This document shows, in pieces, positions 576 through 63,527 of a stretch of DNA of 64,000 nt. The notes below the pieces were generated by a model. It ran no database searches, was not told the DNA's origin, and saw only the letters and a list, made by a program, of their open reading frames with translations. Origin of the DNA: Mytilus galloprovincialis. Its lineage: Eukaryota; Mollusca; Bivalvia; Mytilida; Mytilidae. Numbering within the stretch: position 1 is the first letter of the stretch; each line of letters begins with the position of its first letter. The stretch is from the NCBI RefSeq assembly GCF_965363235.1, contig NC_134849.1:48554122-48618121 (forward strand), given 5' to 3'. The position numbers and the translations under genes are program-made.

Positions 576-3500
576 GTAAGACTTTACCAGCAGATATCTT
601 AGTTGTGTATTGCTTTGATAAAGCGTGACTAAGGCATGCTGTTTCCAGCAAGAATTTATTGGTTTTAGTTTTTATGGAACCATTAATGGTAGGTCTGTGA
701 TATTTGGAGTGCAATTGAATTAGCATTTGAAATCTCATTCATATGGGGATCTACCCCCTTCCCTCAGTCATGGTTGACTTTATGCTAAGTAAGTCATGTG
801 CTACATTATATATACACTTGAAAATTGTATTTACTATCAAATGTTCACTGCTAGAATGAAAACTTTTAATACAAGCCTATACTTTTGGACACAAATAGTA
901 AAACCTTCTTCTTTTGCCATTCAAAAACTCCTATCAAATGTACACTGCTAGCTAGGTAGAATAAAAACTTTTAATACAAGACTTAATTTTTAGCCACAAA
1001 TAATAAAACCTTGTTCTTCAGCCATTCAAAAACTTACTGTGTAGTATGGCAATTGAGCAAAACAATATTTTTCTGCTAAACATGTGTTTGATGAAATGCA
1101 GAAAAAGATTCTATAGTTAATAATACCTTTTAACAGTAATCAGTTAAAATAAACTCAAAAGCAGTTTTCAGAATTGATTTAAGTGTTTATTATGAAGAAT
1201 AGTAGTATAAATAATTGTTTAAAATTGCAAGGAATTTATGAAACAGTTCTCTTGTTTAAAATTGTTGTTTATTGTACAGAGCTGAGAAGTTATTGATAGC
1301 TATCAATAAAAGTTATGAAGGAGCTGTGGATTTAACATCAGACGACAAAGATCCAGATGCTGAAGTTTTATCTGAATCATCAGATGAAGATGTTATAATT
1401 AGTGGAAGTTATATTGACGAAGAGGAATTGGAAGAAATTAAAGTAGCAAATGACTGTATGTAAAATATTATAAGACTTGTGGTAAATGTTCCTTATAGTG
1501 TCTTAGTATAAATATTTTGTTCTTTATTCCAGTCTGGTAACAAACATGGCTCTCATTGCCAAAAATAGAACATCAGGGTAAAATGCAGTTATTGTTTTAT
1601 ATCTGGAAAACCCTTAAGAATAAAAAAAGTCTGACAAGGACAAAAATATTCATTTAAGTTGATTAATAGTTCCTAATGAATTCAGATTTACAATACATGG
1701 CGGCGTAGCAGCTGGTACGGCAGGTACGGCAAGTGCTGTACCTAAAATTTTTATAATTTATTTTAAAAAACACGGTTTTTGCACGGGAATAATGAAAACA
1801 AGATTTATTGATACTGGTTCAATAGAAATTGGAGATGTGGTAGACACGTAGACAATTAATTAGACAAGTTGAACTCTAAATCCAGGTCTCACAATGTGTA
1901 AAAAGTAAACAATTATCATAGGTTAAACTGAGAACGGCCTTGGGCACGGAGCCTAGGCTAACACGAATCAGTAAGCTAAGAAAAAGGGAACCGAAAATGA
2001 AAAATTATTTAAATGCCCCAAATTGTGCAAGCAAGGGCTGTATAGCCATTCAAGGTCGTTAAAAACTTCCATCTGCGTTCTGTAAAACAATTCAAAAAGG
2101 GAATTATAAAAAGGTTTGTATTTCAAAGTTTGTTTCATGACGTAAAATTGGTTTAATTCTCAATCAAACCTGTTCAAATTTGCAAAAGTTCTGTGAGGCA
2201 CTTCGTTCAGTGTATATTATTTTCAGTAATATCAGAGTTTCACCCTCTACAAATTTACAATCTACTGTGCGATGTCGAATAAAAGGCTGAAAGTAAACAT
2301 TCCATGACGCTAAAATCTAAAACCAAGCGTTATGAATATACGCTGTGGATGTCACGATTAGTACAACAATCACATACAAGTAGTCAAATTGCACTGTGAC
2401 CCTTACCCCTGATCCTTAGAATGGTACATAAAGCTAGACCAGCCCTAGTCTCTGTGGCTCATTTCAATTCTATTTATCATGTTTATTATTTTTTGTTTGG
2501 TTATTTCAAAAATTAAAAAAAATAATATTATCGAATCTTTTTTTTTTTTATTATTATTATTTTTTTATGTAGATAATGCAACCTTAGCCTTCTTATTTTA
2601 GCTGAACTTTATATGAATGCATTTTTTTTTTATACTAATCACCATGTCTTTAAAAATAAATGTCCCCGTCAGAATCACCTGAAAATGTACTATTTTAGTT
2701 TTATTTATACATTGTCACAAAAATGTTAGTATTCACCTCAAAAGCTGACAAAACCTTTAACAATTTATAATGGAATAATACTAATAATACTTTCAATCAG
2801 TTTAATTGAGGTCTGGAGCTGGCATGTCAGTAACTGCTAGTAGTCCTTTGTTAATTTATTTTATTATTGTCATTTTGTTAAGTTTCTTTTGTTACCTATT
2901 CTGACATCAGACTTAGACTTCTCTTAAACTGAGTTTTACTGTGCGTAGTGTTGTGTGTTTGTTTTTTTCTACATTGACTAGAGGTATAGGGTGAGGGTTG
3001 AGATCTAAAAAATATGTTTAACAAACCATTGGTTGACTTTGGCTGTCGTCTGCTCTTTGGTCTGGTTGTTGTCTCTTTAAAACATTCCCAGTTTCCATTC
3101 TCAATTTCATATGCACTCTATTATTTCTTTCTGTGATTTTGGAATATCCACAACATTCATTCATTTATTAAAATAAGAAACAACAGATTTTTTTCATCAT
3201 ATTTTTTCCGTCTACACCTTTTTTTATATATATATAAAATGAGAGTCACAGATATTTATGAGATTCTGGCCCTGATTTTTGACCAATTTTTTGCTATTAG
3301 AAAAAAAATTTCCCACATTATTATTTATCATCAATGTATCAAATAGTTATCAAAAGTACCAGGATTATAATTTAGTACGCCAGACGCGTGTTTAGTCTAC
3401 ATAAGACTCATCAGTGACGCTCTTATCAAAATATTTATAAAGCCAAACAAGTACAAAGTTGAAGAGCATTGAAGATCCAAAATTCCAAAAAGTTGTGCCA

Positions 3501-6500
3501 AATACGGCTAAGGTAATCTATGCCTAGGATAAGAAAATCCTTAGTTTTACGAAAAATTCAAAGTTTTGTAAACAGGAAATTCATAAAAATGACCACATTA
3601 TTGATATTCATGTTAATACCGGTGTTAACTACTGGGCTGGTGATACCCTCGGGGACGAAACGTCCACCAGCAGTGGCATCGACCTAGTGGTGTAAATAGT
3701 CCAAAAGTACCAGGATTATAATTTAGTACGCCAGACACGCTTTTCGTCTACATAAGACTCATCAGTGACGCTCTTATCAAAATATTTATAAAGCCAAACA
3801 AGTACAAAGTTGAAGAGCATTGAGGATTCAAAATTCCAAAAAGTTGTGCCAAATATGGCTTAGGTAATCTATGCCTGGGATAAGAAAATCCTTAGTTGAT
3901 ATTCAAAAACATGTGTATTTTTTAACGCTTAAATGCCCTTTTACTTTTGTATCTCCATAACAAATTATTGAACTTGACTATGACAGAATCATTGACGATT
4001 TTCTCGACGAAATCAGAGGAATATGCTTCTGGTGAGGTTGAACCCTATGGCTTTGATGCAAAATTTGTACAGAAGTGATCACCAGAAAACTCTCAATAAA
4101 TGTTAATATGAAATTCGCAATGCATTCCTCGGTTACTAGTTATGACCTATTTCAGTAACTCAATTTACAAATCCCACATCATATATTGGTATATAGTTTA
4201 GATCCATCTAATCAATTTAGAATAGAAATTCAATTGGGGGAGAATACGGCATCCCAAATTTTTAACCCGTCCACATTAACTAATAATTTATACATGCCCC
4301 ACGTCAGGAACTGTTTAATTAGTTCATTTTATACCTATTTTATTTTATTGTTACTTAAAAAAATGATGTTTTCATGAGTAAAATTTAAGTTTCAGGAGAG
4401 GCTCAGAATGCATGATTTTGCACCATTTATACTAAAATTTCCCCAACCCCTGTCAAATATCCGCCTCGTTGAGGCAGTTTGGGTCGCTGTGCGACCCATA
4501 AAACTTCCTGCCGTTCCAATATAAAATTAAGTGCTACATCTCTGATACAGGGTTGCCTTTCTTTTAAAACAGACATTTGAAATTCTTTTAATATCATAGT
4601 ATTAATGAATGGGTGTTTTTATAATGGTCCTGTTATATGTCCAAGGTCTGTAATAATGGTCAAGGAAGTCAGTAATGGCCCGAGGCAACGCCGAGGGCTA
4701 TAACAGACATCCGAGGCCAGTATTACTGACCGAGGACATATAACAAGGCCATTATAAAAACACCCATTTCTTAAAACATTTATTAACCAACTAAACAAAG
4801 GTGTATGTGTTGCTGCCAACTTGATGTACTCTCTACTCTTTTAATAAAAGTTTAGTTTGAAAAAAATAAGTTGTACTTCACCATCAAAAAGCTTTTAATA
4901 TACCAAAGATCCAGAATATTAAGTTGACAGAAGTTACATGCGTTATGTGTTGAAAAACAGGATGAACAGTGATCCCTTAATTTGAAAATCAGCGGTTGTG
5001 TTAAATTTTCTATATTTGATATTAACACTGTTTTTCTGTAATGGCTCTGTTTTTCTGTAATGGCCCTGTTTTTTCTGTAATGGCCCTGTTTTTCTGTAAT
5101 GGCCCTGTTTTGCTGTATTAATGCCCAGTTTGTCTGTATTAAGCCCAGTTAGGGTTTATAATAAACAGTCATTTTTGGCAATAATGTACTTAGTTGGTTA
5201 GTATTACTGATTTATTGTCTTACTGATGTAAGTTAGCATGAATAATTGTGATTTGCCTTTTGTAGGTGTCAAAACATTGACATGCTTGGAGATTAGAAAT
5301 AAAATGTAAATAAATGAAAAGTTTTAGTTATTACATCTAAATTCAAGCTAGTCTTTGTTGATAAAAATATTTGACAATGAAGTAAATTGTCTGAACTTGG
5401 TCAATATATTCAGTCAGTTGTCAAAACTAATACAGTGATAAGCAATCTTTAGCAAAGTGTTTTAAAATGTAAGTTGTTGTCTTAAAAAATGTATGACATG
5501 AAAAAAAATTAACTGAAATCTCTACAAATTCTGCTAATTCTCAGAATATTTAAATTTACGTGTATCTATGAAATAAAAAAAAAACTTATATACTGAAATC
5601 TAGTAACTTAAGAATATTTTTAGCCCTTTTCCTAGTATAAAACCTGTAGTAATTTTTATGTATATATACTAATAATAGTTATTGACTTTGTGAAAAAGTA
5701 CATTTGTAGTACCAGGTTTTAATCAACAGTTGATTGATTTGTCAATCTTATTTATTTATAGCCAAACATATGTATACTGGCAGTCATTTTGCTAACACGT
5801 TTAACAAGAATTTAGAACATTGTAAAGAAATGGATGATTGCAACAATGTACAGTTTCCACAGTTTTGTCCCAGGGTACCAGAATGGAATCCATTAGCAGA
5901 AGAGTGAGTTATAATAATAAGTAACATATGTCTGTATGTCTCTGCTTTCTAAAGGGGGTTGTGTATTGAAATGTAGTACGTCATGTCATGTTCTCTTCAT
6001 CCTACCTTTCATTTTTCCATTTGTTTGTTCTTTTGGTTCTGCATTATTAGTGCCTCGACAGTATTATAGACATACTGCCCTTGGGTGAAGGTGTTAGTGC
6101 AGATGAACACACAAGGGGGAAAATTATCATCCTAGACGAAGACCAGTGGTCTAGTTTATATAAATAATGAAAATTTAATAGTTGCATACATTTTAACCTT
6201 ACTTTTGATGCATTATTGCATTTCTTTTTGTTGATCAGATATCTTGTTTAGTTTTTCCCTCAATATCATTGGCTTGCATTTTTTTTTTGAAAATTGTTCA
6301 AATGAATGAAATTTTACATCAATTGCAAAAGCTGGACAGAACAATGAATAGAAAAGTTGACAAAAACTGATGTTGTCTTTAATTATTTTTCAGTGATATT
6401 AAACCTTATCTTCCATCAGCCAATGTAAGTCCAGAGTTTCTAATAAAAAGTAGTAAAAAGACCAACGTGAGACAAGATCTACAACAGATAAAGGTGTTTG

Positions 6501-9500
6501 AAGCTTTAAATCTAAAAGGTAGGAACTACTGGGTATAATCCTGATTTAAACTAACTATAGTTGTTGCTTTCTGATAACATCCTTTCACCAATGACCAGCC
6601 ACTCAATAAGGACATAAAGGTTAACGTTAAGACTTAGATCATTACTATCCGATTGGTTGTTAACCAGATTTCCAAAGGAAAATATTAGTTATTAGTTTGT
6701 TGATGTACGGCAGTCAGGCGGTAGGGTAGCTGTCAATCAGTGTCCTATCAATAACTTGAAAACGCTTCCATAAAATATTTTCAAATTTTGAAATGTTGTT
6801 TTCTGTGACTAAATGTAGGTCAAGTTGGATTTTCATGATTTAATTCCCCATCATTGTTGAGTTGTAGACCTTTAAGTAGGGAAAAATGATACTAAGATTG
6901 ATTTAGCCTTTCCATTTCTGAACCCAACAAAATTAATTCAGTTATTTTTATGCCCCATTTATGGGCATTATGTTTTCTTGTCTGTGTGTCCGTTCGTCTG
7001 CCCGTTTGTCCGTCTGTTCGTTCGTTCGTCTGTCCCGCTTTAGGGAAAAGTTTTTGGTCAAGGTAGTTTTTGATGAAGTTGAAGTCCAATCAACTTGAAA
7101 CTTAGTAAACATGTTCACTATGATACATTTTTATATGCCTGCTTGCAGGACGTATTACACAGGCAACTTTATTCACATCAATTTCAAGTGAATTTGAATT
7201 CATGTGAATCTCACCTCAAACATGCTTATACATGAAACTCATGTAAAATCAGTTTATGTGAGTTTCACATAAATCTCATGTAAAACTCACATTTTGTTCA
7301 CGTGAACTTCACATAAATTTTTATGCCCCACCTACGATAGTAGAGGGGCATTATGTTTTCTGGTCTGTGCGTCCGTTCGTTCGTCCGTCCGTCTGTCCCG
7401 CCTCAGGTTAAAGTTTTTGGTCAAGGTAGTTTTTGATGAAGTTGAAGTCCAATCGACTTCAAACTTGGTACACATGTTCCTTGTGATATGATCTTTCTAA
7501 TTTTAATGCCAAATTAGAGATTTTACTCCAATTTCACGGTCCAATGAACATAGAAAATGATAGTGCGAGTGGGGCATTCGTGTACTGAGGACACATTCTT
7601 GTTAAAATTAAGTAATTCAAACAACATCTTAATTTTCAAATTTAATTACAATCATAAAAAATACCAATATTTTTTTTTTGGAAAAGTTCACGTGAAATTC
7701 ATGTGAAATATTTCACATGAGAATCGGGTGAATCTCAATTTTCATGTGAGTTTCATGTATAAGCTCATTTGAGGTGAATCTCACGTGAGGTTTTTCATGT
7801 GAATTTCATGTGAGATTTATGTGAAATTCACGTGGGAACATTTTGCCTGTGTATGGTTTTAAGTCTGTTGAACTGCATAGTATGAACCTTTCAGTACTGT
7901 CCATATAAGTATATATATAGAAAAGAAGTTTTAGTTTGATTGCAAATAAGAAGAATATCCACCAGATCAAAATTATGTGGATGTAAGTGAAAATAGTTCA
8001 TTGTATATATAACCTTCAACAATGAGCAAAACTTATACCATATAGTCATCAAGAAAGTAGCCTCTACATGATAGAATGTGAAACAATTCAAACCAGAAAA
8101 ACAAATAGTTAAATGACCATAACTGAAGAACACATTTTATTCTTCTTATGATATTTGTATGATAACCTAAGTATAGTATGTATTAGAAACACATCATTGG
8201 TTTAAACCTCTCTTGTCACTTGGTTAGAATTTTTGCTTAAGCTGTTAGCAAAATCCAATAAACTGAACTGAAAAATATGGAAATGCCTTTTGATATTGTT
8301 GTCTCTTTCTAAAACCTTTTTTGTTGGCTTATTCTTAGCAAAATGTATAAAAGTCAGTTTTGAATTGATTAAATACAACTACTCCAGTAGACTTTATGTA
8401 ATTAAATGATTTTGTGTAATTCTAGTGAAGTGAAAAACATCATGAACATGGAAGTCTGAATACATATTTTGTTGCATTGTAGATTATGGGTTAATATTTA
8501 CTGGAGGGCCTGTCTGGGGATTAGCCTGGTGCCCATATCCACATAATGTTAGACAGCAGTACCAGTACCTGGCAGTCTCCTGTCACCCTGACATGGATAC
8601 AATACACCAGGTAACAGATACCAATGAGGGACCTGGACTGATTCAGATCTGGAATACAGGCAAACTGAATCATGCAGTGTAAGTACAAATATAATTTTCC
8701 TTCATTATACATGTCTAATATATGGTACTATAGGGTTATTGCATAAATATTGGGGAATATTGTCCCGAGTAGAATTTTATATTGCGAGTGCAATATATGA
8801 TCTACGAGGGACAATATTCCCCAATATTCATGCAATAACCCTTTTATTGTATAGCAATATAATATTTGAAATTAAAAATTGGTTTAAACTAAGATTTTGT
8901 CGTTGATGACGTCATGAATTTTGAAGATTTATTGCACTAGTGCAATATTGGAATTTATTGCACGCTAACTTTTGGTTACTTTCTGTGGGAAATATTCTAT
9001 TGCTTTGCAATAAATTATATATTCTACACTTTTCAAACTGGAAAATTAAATATTCAACTCGTGACCGAACAACACTGATAGTTAACTCATGCGCTGCGCA
9101 CATTGGTGAATTAATGTGTTGTTTGGTCACTCGTTGAATATTTTTCTCTATTTGAATTCTTGGATTAGTTATTCTATAAATATTAATTCAGATTTAATTA
9201 AAAACATCTGAACATAATTTATCTAATTAAATTTAATTGATGTACAGGTACATAATACATGTATGTTTATCAAAGTTTCAGTTTGTTTTTTGTTTATTTT
9301 TCATAGGGAATGTATGCCCACACCTAAGTTAGAGTTCTGTATTGCTCATGACTATGGTGTTGTGAGAAAAATGTCTTGGTGTCCACATAGATGTTGGCAG
9401 AAGAAAGATACCATTCTAGTAAGACTATGAATATCATTTGAGTTTACAAATGCTTCCACAAATTTCAAACATTATTACTATATCATAAGGTTTTTTTTTG

Positions 9501-18500: not shown

Positions 18501-21500
18501 GTATTTGCACGTACATATATTTTATGAAATAATTCATATTTTAGACGATATATAAATACTGCAAATGATTTAAACATTGCATAATGATTAATTCTCAAGT
18601 TTAATTAACTAAAACGGGTAATTGTATAACGAATTTTTTATGAAAGGAAAAAATATGCCTTAATTTGAACCAAAAAAATCGGATTATTTTTAATGTAAAA
18701 AAACATTTTTTTTAAAACAAAAAATCTTCCGAGTTACAATTAATATGATAGTTTTGTATCTGTTTTAGTTGTTTAAACCTATACTTTATTTTTTTTTAAT
18801 TGCTTTATGTTAAAAATCTTATTTAAAAATTACTTAGTCGTGATTGCTAAATGAGGGGACTATTGACAGGGACGTTTTTAAACCTCTTTTGGACACTTTT
18901 TTTTTAGTCTAACACCTTGTATTTTATCAATAAGATAATGAAGTTGAATTCTATCAAAAAAAATCGCGGTACCCTGGGATGTAACACAAACTCCTTAACT
19001 AGCGCGCTTTTGAGAACTAGCTGATGGACTATGAAGTATGTCAAAACCTACTGTGATCAGCGATAGTAATTATTTAATCCCTTTATAGGTAGCTGAAATC
19101 ACTTTTGAAATGAAATGTTTATGGAGTGTCTGTTTTTTAGTTTATTAAACTTGTGTTAACTTTTTTGTTGTAAATATCTAAATTTGTACAATGAAAGGTC
19201 TTCACAACTTATCATAATGCCTAAAACTTAGAATGTTAATCATGATGATACATACTAACAGTATCCATGCCATAAACTGACCATTTTTTAAGGATCTGAT
19301 GGATGGTTTTAATATAGTAACCAAAACTGTACACCCCAAAAGTCGAATAAAAGAGTTTGAAGAAAATTCACATAATTGCTAACTTTATAGGCATTAAAAG
19401 GTAAGTAATTTTCGATAACAATGTATTGTTTCTAACTTAAACTGTAAAAGTAATTTAGAATCAGGGGATTTTACCAGATTAGGGTAACTCTTTAACATTT
19501 AGTGGATCAACTTGGTTTGTAATTGCCCATTATTTTATTCATAATTATTGTTCGACTATTTCTTAAATTTTTTATACGACCGCAAATTTTGAAAAAATTT
19601 TCGTCGTATATTGCTATCACGTTGGCGTCGGCGTCGTCGTCGTCGTCGTCGTCGTCCGGCGTCCGAATACTTTTAGTTTTCGCACTCTAACTTTAGTAAA
19701 AATGAATAGAAATCTATGAAATTTTAACACAAGGTTTATGACCATAAAAGGAAGGTTGGTATTGATTTTGGGAGTTTTGGTCCCAACATTTTAGGAATTA
19801 GGGGCCAAAAAGGGCCCAAATAAGCATTTTCTTGGTTTTCGCACCATAACTTTAGTTTAAGTTAATAGAAATCTATGAAATTTTGACACAAGGTTTATGA
19901 CCACAAAAGAAAGATTGGGATTGATTTTGGGAGTTTTGGTTTCAATAGTTTAGGAATAAGGGGCCAATAAAGGGCCCAAATAAGCATTTTTCTTGGTTTT
20001 TGCACAATAACTTTAGTTTAAGTAAATAGAAATCTATGAAATTTAAACACAATGTTTATGACCACAAAAGGAAGGTTGGTATTGATTTTGGGAGTTTAGG
20101 ACCCAACAGTTTAGGAATTAGGGGCCAAAAAGGGACCCAAATAAGCATTTTTCTTGGTTTTTCGCACCATAACGTTAGTATAAGTAAATACAAATCTATG
20201 AAATTTAAACACAAGGCTTATGACCATAAAAGGAAGGTTGGTATTGATTTTGGGAGTTTTGGTCCCAATAGTTTAGGAAAAAGGGGCCCAAAGGGCCCAA
20301 AATTAAACTTTGTTTGATTTCATCAAAATTGAATAATTGGGGTTCTTTGATATGCCGAATCTAACTGTATATGTAGATTCTCAACTTTTGGTCCCGTTTT
20401 CAAATTGGTCTACATTAAGGTCCAAAGGGTCCAAAATTAAACTTAGTTTGATTTTGACAAAAAATGAATCGGTTGGGCTCTTTGATATGTTGAATCTAAA
20501 AATGTACTTAGATTCTTGATTATTGAATTTTTTGGTCCAGTTTTCAAATTGGTCTACATTAAGGTCCAAAGGGTCCAAAATTAAACTTTGTTTGATTTCA
20601 TCAAAAATTGAATCCTTGGGGTTCTTTGATATGCCAAATCTAACTGTGTATGTAGATTCTTCATTTTTGGTCCTGTTTTCAAATTTCAAATTCTACATTA
20701 AAGTCCAAAGGGTCCAAAATTAAACTAAGTTTGATTTTAACAAAAATTGAATTCTTGGGCCTCTTTGATATGCTGAATCTAAACATGTACTTAGATTTTT
20801 GATTATGGGCCCAGTTTTCAAGTTGGTCCAAATCAGGATCTAAAATTATTATATTAAGTATTGTGCAATAGCAAGTCTTTTCAATTGCACAGTATTGTGC
20901 AATGGCAAGAAATATGTAATTGCAAAATATTGTGAAATAGCAAAAAAAATTTTAATTAGAGTTATCTTTCTTTGTCCAGAATAGTAAGCAAGAAATATCC
21001 TATTGCACAATATTGTGCAATAGCAAGAATTTTTTTTAATTGGAGTTATCTTTCTTTGTCCAGAATCAACTTAAATCTTTGTTATATACAATATACAATG
21101 TATATACACTTTTTACTACCAACTGATAAATTAAAATAATCTTTACCATTCAGTGATAACAAGCAGTTTTTTTACATCTAAATATTTTATGATGTATTTA
21201 AATGAGTAGTTATTGTTGCAATCTCCATTAGAAATTTGAATTGATATCAGTTTTGAAAAAGGGAAACGGGGATGTGAAAAAAAAGGGGGGGGTTAAATTT
21301 TTCTCATTTCAGATTTCATAAATAAAAAGAAAATTTCTTCAAACATTTTTTTGAGAGGATTAATATTCAACAGCAAAGTGAATTGCTCAAAGGCAAAAAA
21401 AACCTTTTAAGTTCATTAGACCACATTCATTCTGTGTCAGAAACCTATGCTGTGTCAACTATTTAATTTTAGATTTAAAAAGTTTGAAGAAGAAATCTTT

Positions 21501-24500
21501 AATTGATTTGTAAAATTTTGGCATTTGTTTTGTGTAAAAAAAACCCATGTAATGTCAAAAATTTGATCACAATCCAACTTCAGAGCTGTATCATGCTTGA
21601 ATGTTTTGTCCATACTTGCCCCAACTGTTCAGGGTTCGACCTCTGCGGTCGTATAAAGCTGCACCCTGCGGAGCACCTGGTTAAATCCTACAGCAATTGC
21701 CTTCGTATGTTATTTGCATTTCTTGCAATGTCTGACTCTGCCCATAGTTATGTTGCTATTTTTCCAGGATATTTCTATTTCTAACTGGCATTTGATGGTT
21801 TTTGGCTGTGATTTTAATGGGAACGTTATGTTTACATACTATCCTGCTGTTTTTGGAGAAAAGAAACCTCACAAGTCTAAGATGGTGAGTATAATCAACC
21901 TTTTAAATATCAAATGCTTTATCTTGATATCAATTTAATAAAAGGTTTGAATTTTTTTAATGCCATAGACCCAAATACGGCGGCTTATACTTGTAGTCAT
22001 GTTTCTGAAAGGAAAAGTAGTGGTAAATAGTTGAATTAAACATATATATAAATATTACATGACTGAATAATAGCCAAAGATAAATCTTACAGGGCAATGA
22101 TCATATAAATATGATACTGTACACTACAAAATATAATATATAATCAGTCTAAAGGTACAACATCACCAAAAAATTACAATAAATGAACAAATGAAACTAT
22201 TTATATTTCAGATAACAGATATCCTTCATCCGTATGATCACGATGTAAAATGAATCATATCAAACTAATCTGATTATAAAACTATAACAATCTTCAATTC
22301 TATCCAATAAAACAGGTAAAACAGTGACGCTAGTACAATTCCAAAATTTTCCAAAACACGACGCAAAGATATGCCTAAAATAAGAATAGTAGTTTGCAAT
22401 ATGAACTGGCACAACTCTAAAATTCCAAAATGACAACAGTTAGGATGTTAAATATATATATATTGAGTACTATAAAACAACTTGTTCAGCTTCCTTTGTA
22501 TATATTGAGTACTATAAAACAACTTGTTCAGCTTCCTTTTGTATATATTGAGTACTATAAAACAACTTGTTTAGCTTCCTTTGTATATATTGAGTACTAT
22601 AAAACAACTTGTTCAGCTTCCTTTGTATATATTGAGTACTATAAAACAACTTGTTCAGCTTCCTTTGCCCAAAGAGTCATGAAATCAAGTATTAATAACA
22701 CTTCAAAAAATAAAATTAACATAGAGACCTAATTATGAAATTAATTGTCAGAGTTGCCCTCACTAACGTTCAGGATAAAATTCAAATATCACAGCCCGGG
22801 CCATGTGTAAATTTCCAACAAATCTATGGCTTCCATGAATTATTTCTTAAATAATTTATGTTATAGCAATACCATGAATTATTTCTTAAATAGCTTTTGT
22901 TTTAGCAAAATAGGTTTGAAATTTCATGAAGTAGCTGTAAAAATGAAAATGAAAATTGTTTATGAATATGCAATGACTTGTAGTATGAATTTCTCAGTTT
23001 GAAAAATGGATTCCTACTTTTTAAGTCCACTTAGAATCTCAGTTTTTATGTGATGACAATAAAAATCTATAGCCTTGTGTCAGGAATAAGATTATTTCCC
23101 TTGTCTATATATATTGACAGTTTATGTCAATCAGAGGAAATGATATTCTAATCCATAACCTATTCACATAGGATCAATAAACAGTTCACTTTGGTAATTT
23201 TTCATAATGAAATTGAATGTTGTTTGTTTTCAGGTTTTATACAAGACAAATCTAAAGAAAAAACATTGTGTTATAAATGAGGAGGAGGAAGACTCAGATA
23301 ACCATTCTACAAAAACTTATGAAGACACTGTTAGCAAATATTATCTGGAATATAGTGAAAACATTGTAAGTAATACAGAACATGTGTACTTGTAACAGTG
23401 AACGTTCATAATAATAATAAAGTGTGCAAACAAAGTAAAATTACAAAAATACTGAACTCTGGGGAAAATTCAAAACGGAAAGTCCCTAATCATAGGGCAA
23501 AACCAAAAGCTCAAACACACCAAACGAATGGATAATAACTGTTTAGGGAAAAGATTGAAATCAAAGGGCCTTATCTGTGATATCATAAGCTTCAATGTAT
23601 TCCAAGATTCAGGGGTATCTATTGGACAAATCAAATGATATTTTCTGATGGCTTTGATTTGAAGCATAAAAGAATGGAATGTGATTTGTAAGACTCCAAG
23701 TATATCTTTCTTGTTTTTTTGTGAGGCTTCCTTTAGTTTGTTTGAAATATTCTGTATCTGCTCAGATGCAACAGAAACAAAATCAAAATATAACTATTGT
23801 ATTTTATGTATGCATTAATTGCCTTAGAAGAAGCATTTGAAAAACAAGACATTTTATAATGTATTTGAGTTGGCATTGATATGAGAAGTACATAATGGCT
23901 TCCAAGTCATTAGTTAAAAGTCTTATTAAAAAATTACTAGTAACATAAAAAAGAATAATATACAAGTTTTATGAAGTTAAGATCAATTATATGGTTGTTA
24001 TACTCATGGGAAAAAACTAGATATGTATTAGTTGTGGTTGACTTTAAATGTAAAACTATTTCAGTCACTTGATAAGAAAATGATGGCTGACAATACTGGA
24101 TGTTTGAATTTAACCCAGTTTCCACTTGCTGCAGTACACAGAGTAAGTCTTAACCTTATTTCATAGTGTTGGTAATGCTTTATTGTCGAGCCTGCAACTT
24201 TTGTTGCAGAAAGCTCGACAGGGATAGTGATCCGACGGCGGCGGCAGCGGCGGCGGCGGCGGTGTTAGCTCACTTCTTAAAAGCTATATATTTTAGAAGG
24301 TGGAAGACCTGGATGCTTCATATTTTGTATATAGATGCCTCATGTTACGAAGTTTCCGTCAGTCACATGTCCATTGTCCTTGACCTCATTTTCATGGTTC
24401 AGTGACCACTTGAAAAAAAAGTTCAGATTTTTTGCAATGTTAAATTTTCTCTTACTGTAAGTAATAGGATAACTATATTTAGTATGTGCCTACCTTGCAA

Positions 24501-45744: not shown

Positions 45745-46033
45745 TATGCCCCACCTATTTTAAGATACATGTAGTAGGAGGGCATTATGTTTTCTCAACA
45801 GTTTGTCCTTCTGTTCGTTTGTCTGTCTGTTCCAGTGGGTTAAACTTTTTGGTAAAGGTAGTTTTTGATGAAGTTAAAGTCCAATCAACTTGAAACTTAG
45901 TACACATGTTCCCTATGATATGATCTTGCTAATTTCAATGTCAAATTAGAATTTTGACCCCAATTTCAGGGTCAACTGAACATCTGAACAGTGAAAATAA
46001 AAGTGTGAAAAGGGCATCTGTGTACTATGGACA
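45745..46033 (+). repeat. tatgcccca-type repeat, left part, split by the 46034 element
   Basis: Starts atgccccacctat and runs to gtactatggaca; the remaining tail (gacacattcttgttt) resumes at 51911. Comparison with 7321-7602 and 62451-62766 shows that the two parts were once joined. Confidence 0.85.
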
Positions 46034-46683
46034 TGTTCCAGACCATACGAGTATTTGGACCGTACGCGTACGGTCAGGACCGTATACGTATACTCGTAGG
46101 GTCGGACCATACGCGTACGGTCGGACCGTAGGAGTATACGCGTATGGTCCAGCTACCCATACATGTTTTGGGATCATATGGGTTAAATTCAAACAAACAT
46201 TTATCAAAATCTTTATTTTTCGTTATACAAATTGTTATAATTACAGTTAGATGGATAAAGTGAATAAGCGAATAATTGAAACTAAATATTTGTTTATCCG
46301 ATAATTCTATTTTGTTACTCAAGGTGACACTGGTTTCCACAAAGAACGTCATATTTTTTTTACATTAACATGTTTTGTTCATGCATGTTCCTTTGCATAT
46401 GCATTTTTTTGTAAAGTTCCTAAATATTCTAAAACTATTGTTCTCCCACTTTATGTTTACTTCCGATAACTTCAATTTCAATGAGCATACTGGGCTGCTA
46501 TTAATGAATTACTGACATGCTAAATACAGGAGATTAAAAGATTAAATAAGCGTGATTTTTTTAAATAGTTAAAATTATGAAAAGTTTTTATTTCAATTAC
46601 TATTAAACTTTTTATATTAATTTCAGATATAAGTTATGTTGATCTGCCATATACATTTGTATCTAATAAACTTGACCAACTTC

Positions 46684-47182
46684 TTAATACACTGTGTCTT
46701 AACCACACCGGCAAAATTTGATCGGACTCGATGGTATCTAACATCCGGCACAATGACGGAACATTAATAGACAGAAGAAAGATAGGTTTCTCCTTATTTT
46801 CTTATTTTTTTTATGATATCGAAGAATATATATACATATACAACTATTTTCTATTGTGATATGCAGTATTTTCTACAACCGTTCTGTATTAACGGAGAAA
46901 TAAGTAAAAATGCACGTCAAAATGACGAATTGAGTGAACCTTGCCTCGAAATTGTTTATTTTCTCGTTAAATTGTTCACATTGTACGGAAAGAAAGGTAC
47001 GGGAAGATAGATACTGACACGGAGATTGCAAAACTTGTCATTATAAACACCTCAATACTTGTATTTCTGAGTATGGAGCGAAAGAAATGGGTCATGTCAA
47101 AATGGAAATGGCCGGTTTCGTCAATGTTTACCACCCGGTTTGGTCATAGATTTCACAATGCATAACCCGGTTTGGTCAACTA
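46684..47182. repeat. Left inner inverted arm
   Basis: It pairs with 51312-51806 over nearly its whole length (for example gagtatggagcgaaagaaat with its inverse). Some 62- to 65-codon open stretches here are chance frames within the arm. Confidence 0.85.
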
Positions 47183-47487
47183 AAAAAAAATCATAATCGC
47201 ATTACATTATAATTGATAATTTAACTTCAGTGTTAAAAAGGAGTTTTAGAACACAAATAATTTTAATTTTACTTTGCATTCAAAAATTTATAACAGCAAA
47301 ATAGGTAAGAATGAAGGTTATATCGCAAATTGAGGTTAAAGCTCTCAAATATGCGTTTTCTATATGAATTATGGAAAATATGTTTAAACTTGAAATTAGA
47401 GTTAAACTTTACGGTCTTAAAAAATCGAAACACACAATTGATATCTGATTTTCTCGTACAATAGGATGGACACCTTTATAAGTAACA

Positions 47488-47634
47488 GGGGCGGATCCAG
47501 CCATTTTAAAAAGGGGGGGTCCCAACCCAGAGTAAAGGGGGTTCCAGCTATATGCTCCCATTCAAATGCATTGATCGGCCAAAAAAAAGGGGGTTCCAAC
47601 CCCCGGACCCCCCCCCCCCCTGGACCCGCCAATG
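47488..47634 (-). repeat. gcggatccag MITE, minus copy
   Basis: Short element with ggcggatccag and tggacccgcc ends and G/C runs. The same family is in opposite orientation at 48051-48170, and a diverged relative is at 59816-59972. Confidence 0.7.
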
Positions 47635-48050
47635 AGTAATCTAAACATTCTATGTATGTAATCTTTTCTATGATCGTTAATAATAAATTTTTAATAAACA
47701 GTGATGATAAGACAAATGTATATATGCATGCATAATCGACATAGAAAATTAGTGTGTATAGGAAGAAAAGGATTACAACTACCATGCATCAAAGGTGGGT
47801 CGGGGGCGTGCAATCTATACGTCTTCTAGATTCGCCACTTATCTTATAAAGTGTATACGGTACCGAATTAAAAATATTGTAAGAAATAAGAAAACAGGGA
47901 CACCCGCAAAATCGGATTATGTGAGTTTGATTATGTTTATTATAAACATTCTCATTGATATTTTTAAACAAGCGACACTAAGTGATTCGAATTCATAGCG
48001 TTTTGAACTATTTGTATAAAGCTGCATATGTCAAAAGTTAGAAGGTTTGC

Positions 48051-48170
48051 ATTGGCGGATCCAGGGGGGGTCCGGGAGTTGGAACCCCCCTTTTTTTGCC
48101 GATCAATGCATTTGAATGGGAGCATATAGTTGGAACCACCCCCCTTTTTCAAATGGCTGGATCCGCCCTG
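48051..48170 (+). repeat. gcggatccag MITE, plus copy
   Basis: Inverted relative of 47488-47634; both contain ccaattcaaatgcattgatc-like words (aatgcatttgaatgggagca in this orientation). Together they form a potential hairpin with a 417-bp loop. Confidence 0.7.
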
Positions 48171-48444
48171 GGTTTGACTGTAACATATAAAAGTATGGAA
48201 CACAGATTTAACGACTTTTTTTCCCTATTTGCCATATGTCCATTGCTCTTGCCCTTGACCTCATTTCTATATTATTTTTCCTTCGGCCACATGACGATTC
48301 ATGTGACCGTGAACTTATTTCCTTCATTGATTGGTAAATGTTAAGGGTTTTGTGTAGTTGGTTTTATTAATTAGAATGTGTTCATGTCCGTCTGGCAGGA
48401 TTCATTAGACCTCGACTTAAATGGTTCCATAAACAATTGGTTAA

Positions 48445-49682
48445 CATACCTGCCAAGTTTTGAAAGTGCCCATGGGGGTTTTAGTGCGCGACAACAATTT
48501 CAAAGGTTACAATTCTTTGCGACGACTATTTTGAATGTGCTGTTTTGTGGTCTAGAAAAAGTGTCATATTTGTAAGATGAGCTTACATGCCTTTTTCTAA
48601 AGTTTTTTTGCATAATTATAGTTATTATATATCAGTAGAAAAGATGAACATGTAGCTGCAAGACCAGGAATTAATTTCATGTGTAAGGATATTAAATAAT
48701 TGCTGACTTTTTCAATTTAAAATTATGCACAAAGAAAGACCTTTATCAGGTTGGGAACAACACCTAGGGGTATCCCCTCAATGTAAGGACATTAAAAACC
48801 ACTTTTTAAGTAAAAATGAGCACATTTTCTGAGTGATATTCATATTATTTGAAGTAACTTTTCCCAAAGAATTATACATCTTATGATCTATCTGGTATAA
48901 TATGGTCAACACATGTCCAAGTATTATGGTATGTTCATGGCCTAATATATCATGTATATCTTCTTTATTTTTCAAAATAATTGGACCCTACATTTAGAAA
49001 AGTAGTTCTAAATATAATGTTGAATTTCCCATTTTTAAGTTAAATAAAAATCTACATTTTTTCATTTTTATTTTTCACAGAACTTGAGAAGTAAAATGAC
49101 CCCTTGCATTTGACTAAGGGAAGTCCCTCATTTAAGGGATTCCTCATGTGGGTTTTTTTGTTTTGCCCATGTGAAAAATAAAGAATAGTACATTAAATGA
49201 TTTGGTATTTTAATTAAATACGTATCATTTGTTACAGCAAGTGAAATATCAATAAATTAGTGAATAAACTACTATTTATTATCTTTATGGTAGTACTGCA
49301 TCATTGAAGTTTGTCAATCAGCCATGCTTTTATTCTTATTCTGTGTAAGAACCTCCTTGCAGGTGAAAAACCATTTGCCATGTTCACGATTTTAAAAAAC
49401 AGAGGAAATCAACACAAGTTCAAAATCTAGGATGTTAGAATTATCTTGAGAGAAAATGTTTTTGATTGGCTGATTAATTTGATCATGAGAAACATAGAAT
49501 TTGATTGGCTGAACACGAATGTCTTCCTTGGACACGGTTCAAAATCGGGAACCATCATATTTTTCGTGTAGATTTTCACAAAATCGTGTTTTAGAGGGTT
49601 TTTCACGATCACGATCGTGCAATCGTGACAAAGGGTCAAAATCGTGTAATACACGCCTAAATCGTGAAAGTTGGCAGGTATG
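48445..49682. mobile_element. 1,238-bp element, CATACCTGCCAA ends, 6-bp duplication GGTTAA
   Basis: The inverted ends CATACCTGCCAA and TTGGCAGGTATG are flanked by GGTTAA at 48439-48444 and 49683-49688. It has split an old pearl-type unit (ccttgacctcat... | gtttctgtgacc). The interior shows no transposase; near the right end is a stretch rich in atcgtg and cacgat words. The superfamily is unknown to me. Confidence 0.75.
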
Positions 49683-49689
49683 GGTTAAG

Positions 49690-51311
49690 TTTCTGTGACC
49701 ATTTTTTTTTATCTTACAGACCTTCATCATAAATTCAATTGCGATCATTTAAGCATTTGTGACATGTCAGTGCGTGCACTTAAATAAAAATAATATGTCT
49801 TAAATTTTTTTATTGAAAAAAAAACCGCCAGTGAAGTTGTTTGCTATGTCCGGTCAAGTTATCCGGTTCGTGAAATTTGAAATTTTCAGTTGTTACACAT
49901 TTTTTTTTTAAATTCAAGAACGGTGAAATTTTGTTTGGAATTCTTTGTTGTTTTTAGCTCACTTGACCCAACAGGAAAAGTATTATTTTTTCATCACTTG
50001 GCACCGGTCGACTGTCGTTCATTATCTTTCAATACCATTTTTACATAAATTTTCACATCTAAAATTACTAGGCTGCATTTAACAAACCTTAATTAAAGTC
50101 ATATGTCTTTTTTAATTATAATTAGGGTATCTAGTTTTGAAAAGTTTACTGTGACCCCGCTTGTCAACCAAGATGGCCGTCATGGCTAAGAAATAAACAA
50201 AGGGGGGCATGCAAGTGCATGATATCAATCATGTAAACACAGCCGTAGACATAGACAATTCGAAAAGGCCAGATGATTATCTTCAAAATGTTGAGCTCTA
50301 TCATTTGTCCATTTACTATAAAATTCTCACATTAGTTCTTAAAGGAGTTATTGCATTGCCCTTAAATGACGAATTTGAAGTTCTTTTTATCAATTTCTAT
50401 CTATTATTTTCAAACATATATATATAAAAGTCATATAGCAAAAATGACTTAGGAAGTCAAGAAGATATACAAATAACTCGACTTGGCCGATATCCTAATA
50501 AAACTCATTGACCTTTAATTAAGATTTTTTTTTTCATTTCATTGCGTTTTTACACGCCCGTCACAATTTTGACAGGACGTATAAATGTATACATCCGTCC
50601 GTCCGTACTTCCTTTGATCCGTCCGTTCCTCCATCTATCAGTCATTCTGTCCGTCCGTCTATCTATCCGTCTATCCTTCTGTCCACCGTAAACATGTCGC
50701 ACCGTAACTTGAGAACAGTTTATCAAGTTTTTATGAAACTTATTTCTTGAAATGGTCAAACGATCTGTAAACCTTTTAGTAAAAACCCAATTAAATCTTT
50801 TTGAGTTACAGGACTTTGTAAGTAAAACAGGAGTGTGTTTTTTAACATGTCGCGCCATATCTCAAAACGATTTATCATAATTGCATCAAACTTTACACAC
50901 TTCTTAGAAATATAAATCTTAACTTCTGCATACTTTTTGTTCATGTTTTAAATTTTGTTTATTATAGCGTTATTTAGGGTTTTTTTTGTACAAAAAGGAG
51001 GGGGTCACATATTGCGATGTATCTCAAAACCTATATAAAAAAAATATCATAATGTTAATGTTAAAAAGATAATTAGATATCAGTGTTTGCTATTGAGTAT
51101 TTATATTCCATTTAAAATTAGTTTGAAGATCAGTGAAATAACGGATACGCCTTTCATTAGGACACTGTGTATTACTATAATTACCTATGTAAATAAATTT
51201 AACAACGCCAAGTTAACTTTATAATAAATATATATTTAAATTCTTTCGAAAGACAATGTTCAGATCCGAGTTAACGTTACTTTTCATAAATTGTTGGTTT
51301 TAAAAAATATA
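49690..51311. other. Interior of the 5.9-kb element, right part
   Basis: 50550-50870 holds a repeat with a cgtccgtccg run and gacaggacgtataaatg, common in mussels. No gene is recognised. Confidence 0.45.
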
Positions 51312-51806
51312 AAAAACCGGGTGATATATATAGACGAAACCGGGTGATTGTGTAGAAACAACAATGACGAAACCGGTGTATTTTAATTTGACATGACCCA
51401 TTTCTTTCGCTCCATACTCAGAAATACAAGTATTGAGGTGTTTATAACAACAAGTTTTGCAATCTCCGTGTCAGTATCTATCTTCCCGTACCTTTCTTTC
51501 CGTACAATGTGAACAATTTAACGAGAAATTAAACAATTTCGAGGCAAGGTTCACTCAATTCGTCATTTTGACGTGCATTTTTACTTATTTAACCGTTAAT
51601 TTAGAACGTTTGTAGAAAATATTGCATATCACAATAGAAAATAGTTGTATATGTATATATATTCTTCGATATCATAAAAAATATAAGAAAATAAGGAGAA
51701 ACCTATCTTTCTTCTATCTATTAATGTTCCGTCATTGTGCCGGATGTTAGATACCATCGAGTCCGATCAAATTTTGCCGGTGTGGTTTAGACACAGTGTA
51801 ATATTA
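51312..51806. repeat. Right inner inverted arm
   Basis: Inverse of 46684-47182 with a few percent differences and small indels. It ends right before the palindrome-rich outer terminus. Confidence 0.85.
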
Positions 51807-51960
51807 GTCAGACCGTACGCGTACGGTCCGACCGTATGCGTATTTTGAAAAAGTACGCATACGGTCCAGACTGTACGCGTACGGTCCAAATACTCATACG
51901 GTCTGGAACAGACACATTCTTGTTTCATGATTCAGTTTTATCATGATGGATAATTACAAT

Positions 51961-55242: not shown

Positions 55243-63527
<8,285 letters not shown>

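Follow-up and report, generated by a model that had tools for sequence, protein, structure and literature searches.

Is a 5877-bp stretch of mussel DNA that begins and ends in inverted palindromic repeats one long mobile element, or more than one? The stretch occupies positions 46034-51910 of a 64,000-bp region of the Mytilus galloprovincialis genome (GCF_965363235.1, NC_134849.1:48,554,122-48,618,121, forward strand; hereafter the window, to whose numbering positions refer), and an initial annotation had described it as a single long element. We found two nested DNA elements: an outer, non-autonomous, multi-copy element of ~767 bp without its insert, interrupted by a 5.1-kb element of a different type.

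The outer boundaries are well defined. TGTTCCAGACC starts at 46034 and GGTCTGGAACA ends at 51910, and GACA lies on both sides, as the initial annotation had reported. Self-comparison of the window placed the host repeat found left of the insertion also at 7316-7593 and 62538-62755. Both of these uninterrupted places read GGACACATTCTTGTT, and the split place reads GGACA, the element and then GACACATTCTTGTT. When the flanks were joined with one GACA, the alignment crossed the junction with 81% (158/194) and 82% (151/185) identity to the two uninterrupted places, restoring the host repeat that had been proposed to be split here. The host repeat reaches just 10-11 bp past the insertion, making the right-hand proof of the empty site short but exact.

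The same self-comparison revealed inverted repeats of 483 bp and 93% identity (46685-47156 and 51321-51803), overlooked in the earlier description. Lying inside the palindromic ends, they indicate a second element within 46034-51910. Its inverted ends start with CACTGTGTCTAAACC, and the left end in the window reads CACTGTGTCTTAACC. At the corresponding site, where the window reads TTAATA, 5109 bp of insert and TAATATTAG, intact outer copies read CTTCTTAATATTAGTCAG (with single changes in some). The locus thus holds two insertions, each with an empty site and with duplications of different length, 4 bp for the outer and 5 bp for the inner. Both pairs of arms are symmetrically nested, as they would be in a single 5.9-kb element with compound inverted ends made of the outer palindromes and the inner 480-bp arms. 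This is extremely improbable, and we consider it refuted: 31 of the 32 pairs of outer ends among the first 100 matches listed are 543-793 bp apart and have no room for the inner part, inner ends are found at other sites bearing their own 5-bp duplications, and the inner site is empty in intact outer copies.

The nesting gives an order of events. The host repeat would have received the ~767-bp non-autonomous element, with duplication of GACA; this element would later have received the 5.1-kb non-autonomous element, with duplication of TAATA; and further insertions then entered the inner element. A 1.4-kb segment (48292-49717) is missing from all seven inner copies compared; within it lies a stretch bounded by the inverted ends CATACCTGCCAA and TTGGCAGGTATG, with GGTTAA on both sides. 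Short elements of the type GGCGGATCC...GGATCCGCC lie in opposite orientations at ~47486-47637, missing from 6/6 inner copies (the site was not found in locus L023), and at ~48050-48170, missing from 7/7. The features of the locus are collected in Table 1.

Table 1. Coordinates of the nested elements, their ends and their target duplications in the window.
Feature	Position	Strand	Remarks
GACA, left copy of 4-bp target duplication	46030..46033		partner copy 51911-51914
Outer Ginger2-like element, left part (end A)	46034..46689	+	aligns with intact copies of 645-796 bp; includes left TAATA 46685-46689
End A motif array, nine copies of GACCRTAYGMGTA	46041..46149		element positions +8 +25 -30 +45 -58 +72 -77 +91 -104
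Inner Transib-like non-autonomous element, 5109 bp, CACTGTG...CACAGTG	46690..51798		inserted in outer element at TAATA
Inner left terminal inverted repeat, 467 bp	46690..47156	+	93% to reverse complement of 51321-51798
Inner right terminal inverted repeat, 478 bp	51321..51798	-	pairs with 46690-47156
TAATA, right copy of 5-bp duplication from inner element	51799..51803		left copy 46685-46689; empty site in intact outer copies
Outer element, right part (end B)	51799..51910	+	96-99% to most copies listed (in one comparison, the 40 best only)
End B motif array, seven copies of GACCRTAYGMGTA	51811..51903		from tip +8 +25 -30 +45 -69 +83 -88; +45/-69 pair 11 bp apart
GACA, right copy of 4-bp target duplication	51911..51914		partner copy 46030-46033

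To define the outer family, we searched the genome (1.385 Gb in 331 contigs) with a 34-letter tip pattern, which gave 806 matches, whereas the same pattern read backwards as a control gave 0. Among the first 100 matches listed, 64 formed 32 convergent pairs, of which 31 spanned 543-793 bp (median 767) and one 4790 bp, and the other 36 had no nearby partner fitting the pattern. We compared 36 copies with both ends: the window copy, eight early loci, six loci whose two ends were already known, L039, and the next 20 consecutive pairs from the tip list; because the tips had served as the search query, this sample is in part biased towards copies with paired ends. With the end pair giving the best duplication chosen wherever a locus offered several, a perfect 4-bp duplication was present in 32 of the 36 copies, in agreement with the mobile element, inverted ends and 4-bp duplication proposed initially. 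The misses were L048 (5 bp, GTTGA), L055 (3/4 letters), and L057 and L058 (none). Both termini recur in inverted order at many loci, which speaks against the two arms being unrelated repeats.

The 32 perfect duplications reveal a marked target preference. TATA accounts for 20, TACA, GTTA and TGTA for two each, and GACA, GTAA, GAGA, TATG, GATA and AATA for one each; the preceding base is A or G and the following base C or T in every case, such that 20/32 copies lie in an exact RTATAY target. The tips start with TGTTC (TGTTT at one tip each of L003, L004 and L008), and the inverted ends of 93 and 104 bp share 80% identity.

A closer examination of the ends showed that the near-perfect palindromes, which are present at both ends as first described, are built from one 13-bp motif, GACCRTAYGMGTA, whose copies alternate in orientation. 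Two overlapping copies give GACCGTACGCGTACGGTC, two abutting copies give the 26-bp blocks of end A, and two copies 11 bp apart give the end B hairpin. Scanning with GACCRTAYRMGTA, one mismatch allowed, found 547 matches in the ends of the 36 copies against 0 in 21,605 bp of interior, and 0 when the 280 bp of ends from one copy underwent 200 single-base shuffles. Excluding L002 and L039 (both >1 kb), 29 of 34 copies have exactly the nine-unit layout at end A, and 26 of 34 have exactly the seven-unit layout at end B. Some arrays are shortened: L008, L040 and L052 retain as few as three units at end B, and L040 has four at end A. The tip is followed by another context after the first motif at 25 places, of which five were examined (L063-L067). 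L064-L066 are outer copies with shortened end B arrays and 4-bp duplications by the printed letters, while L067 shows a 42-bp match to end B and, further on, a 50-bp match to the interior, and is probably an interrupted outer copy. L063 (G000:C8:8286600-8287580) holds a 49-bp element that is hardly more than two outer tips, with a near-perfect duplication (3/4 letters).

Both ends fold as DNA far better than dinucleotide shuffles (z -6.9 and -9.6). The palindromes might thus act as DNA hairpins (cruciforms) during excision or replication, or as host-factor sites, rather than as transposase sites; besides the strong folding of both ends as single strands, the end B hairpin retains its pairing though both arms differ from the 18-bp palindromes. 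We regard this as unlikely, as the 13-bp motif is kept while neighbouring copies overlap, abut or stand 11 bp apart, a pattern more in keeping with repeated protein sites than with a single hairpin. The protein might nevertheless be one of the host. The initial suggestion that the palindromes may be binding sites is supported. In our preferred reading, an outer transposase would be loaded onto the ends by binding copies of the 13-bp motif in alternating orientation, with palindromes arising from its pairs. It is improbable, though worth stating, that the family represents a transposase system not yet described, or a distant branch of Ginger2, which reads its ends via the ordered, asymmetric array (nine versus seven units); if so, end identity during synapsis would depend on the array and not on a simple inverted tip.

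End A is strongly conserved. In 20 pattern-chosen copies, only positions beyond 34 were counted, because the tips had served to find the copies. Over positions 35-118 of end A, 7/997 non-CpG letters (0.7%) and 21/585 CpG letters (3.6%) differ from the consensus, against 961/8956 (10.7%) and 29/220 (13.2%) in the interior, and divergence climbs from ~1% to 10% over positions 100-126. This pattern fits selection on the ends of copies that moved, plus some later CpG decay, and does not by itself identify the binder; the CpG bias of the changes in end A would predict methylated ends.

The inner element likewise belongs to an abundant family. Its exact 26-bp tips occur 407 times in the genome (control, 0), and the first 100 listed include 38 convergent pairs of 2.6-8.0 kb. 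Of the 20 loci compared, 17 have both ends (18 elements, with two in L016) and three are one-ended (L015, L021, L031). Leaving out the one-ended loci and L024, whose left end is damaged, and adding the window copy gave 18 elements, all 36 tips of which carry CACTGTG and 17 of which have an exact 5-bp duplication. The miss, L029 (4/5 letters), has flanks in common with L030, so the two are probably one insertion duplicated along with its surroundings. CAC ends and 5-bp duplications mark Transib and RAG-like (RAGL) transposons in the available parts of three reports (PMC8355894, PMC7204232, PMC9435367). The CAC start and the 5-bp duplications in 17/18 elements would also suit a RAGL (RAG1L/RAG2L) transposase instead of a plain Transib one, and oysters are known to have RAGL transposons that make duplications of this kind, according to the sections available (PMC7204232). 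We consider this very unlikely, since CACTGTGTCTAAACC departs at positions 5-10 from the protostome RAGL tip consensus given there, CACTWMCAAACKTYKBB.

Taken together, we think it likely that a host repeat was hit by a ~767-bp Ginger2-like element and then by a 5.1-kb Transib-like element, both mobilised in trans. A Ginger2-type, integrase-like transposase would move the outer family, cutting before TGT and joining the two ends to RTATAY sites at points 4 bp from each other; a Transib/RAG1-like transposase would move the inner family, recognising the CAC-starting ends and cutting the target with a 5-bp stagger.

Several results weigh against this explanation. No transposase was recognised for either family among open frames judged by length and by eye, a procedure that could have missed a decayed one. 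The initial annotation had suggested looking for an integrase-like transposase in larger copies; in the one longer outer copy examined in full, L039 (4790 bp, the sole long pair among the first 100 outer matches listed), no integrase was recognised by eye. We rejected L039 as an autonomous copy, as its length comes at least partly from an inserted repeat that also lies at 57.5-60.0 kb of the window. Inner copies reach 8376 bp, with the extra length at least partly made up of further insertions. The longest, L023, was rejected as an autonomous copy: it holds a nested stretch with 578-bp inverted ends, and three plus-strand frames of its interior had no Pfam match. The middles of the long inner copies L060-L062 contain other repeats and no frame >170 aa. 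The RAG1 model PF12940 had no match in the genome and none in any control genome either, so this search says nothing on absence. End B is conserved to an intermediate degree (positions 35-100: 55/891 non-CpG, 6.2%, and 13/351 CpG, 3.7%), perhaps partly owing to copies with shortened arrays. The outer tips have the TGT of the Ginger2 end TGTNR and not the R at the fifth base, which is C (T at one tip of L003, L004 and L008), so we call it Ginger2-like without assigning the outer family to Ginger2 itself. The inner 5-bp duplications are AT-rich (19% G+C, compared with 38% in the adjacent 5 bp on each side), and Transib targets are G+C-rich. Given these targets and the misfit to the RAGL consensus, Transib-like is the most that we claim for the inner family. 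Because the listing of each tip search covered its first 100 matches, other parts of the genome may well contain autonomous copies.

Several further observations were made during these searches. Among frames of at least 110 aa, those of L029 (279 aa) and L031 resemble pieces of reverse transcriptase by eye. A scan with PF17921 scored 150 places of 2415 candidates. Three Integrase_H2C2 matches (G000:C4:7068838, 7070210 and 7071582) are exactly 1372 bp apart, a spacing that suggests a tandem array. The repeat inside L039 (L039 763-4703) corresponds to window 57525-59971, which includes a 121-bp tandem array. Another repeat with internal repeats, at window 19673-21683, is also present in inner copy L060 and at loci L013 and L031. 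The nested stretch of L023 spans element positions 1558-6445, and its inverted ends (94% identity) consist of short repeats.

What appeared to be one new long element thus resolves into two ordered layers. Both come from abundant families whose duplications and ends are clean; the outer family follows the Ginger2 target rule and carries a highly regular array of motifs, and the inner one has Transib/RAG-like ends. Neither family was found described in the titles and abstract openings of the literature searched. In the parts available of a mollusc genome survey by transposase domain, 98 Ginger elements and one Transib element were counted (PMC10294476); against these counts, our two families point to transposases that searches of this kind may have overlooked.

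Compared with known systems, the outer family is closest to Ginger2/TDD. Ginger2 elements have 4-bp duplications, an RTATAY target, TGTNR ends and inverted ends of 50-180 bp, and their transposase combines an H2C2 zinc finger with an integrase-like DDE domain, as given in the portions available of Bao, Kapitonov and Jurka (2010, PMC2836005). The outer family shares the duplication length, the target, TGT...ACA ends and an inverted-end length within this range, and is short, as is the Ginger2 derivative Ginger2-1N1_NV (252 bp) listed in the same portions (PMC2836005). It differs in its fifth base (C/T), in its ends, which are an ordered array of 13-bp motifs in alternating orientation, and in that no transposase was recognised by eye in the copies seen. 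Ginger1 also has TGT ends and 4-bp duplications, but these are CCGG or CCGT (PMC2836005, same portions), which occur in 0/32 outer copies against the TATA-like duplications found. The initial proposal of a Ginger-like element can therefore be narrowed to Ginger2, the subgroup indicated by the RTATAY target together with the TGT ends.

Other superfamilies also duplicate 4 bp, among them Sola and Chapaev. One of these, or an undescribed one preferring RTATAY, might move the outer family in place of a Ginger2 transposase, given that no transposase was seen, that the fifth base departs from TGTNR and that 'palindrom' and 'subterminal' are absent from the main text of the Ginger paper (PMC2836005). 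We find this doubtful, because the 4-bp duplication, RTATAY and TGT jointly match the published Ginger2 profile, and retain a Ginger2-type transposase as the more probable agent.

The inner family resembles Transib in its 5-bp duplications and long inverted ends, as described for Hztransib in the parts available (PMC1852546), and in its CAC ends (PMC7204232, in part), and is unlike it in its AT-rich targets and in that no transposase was seen. With mollusc RAGL/ProtoRAG elements, as far as the available sections describe them (PMC7204232), it shares the CACT start and 5-bp duplications; it differs in tip positions 5-10, and no RAG1L or RAG2L was seen. The array of the outer family has its own parallels. 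En/Spm and hAT elements carry subterminal transposase-binding repeats near their ends. As in these (for hAT, Hermes, in the sections available of PMC10368747), several copies of a short motif lie near the ends in both orientations; these elements belong to other superfamilies and use other motifs, whereas in the outer family the layout is fixed and palindromes result.

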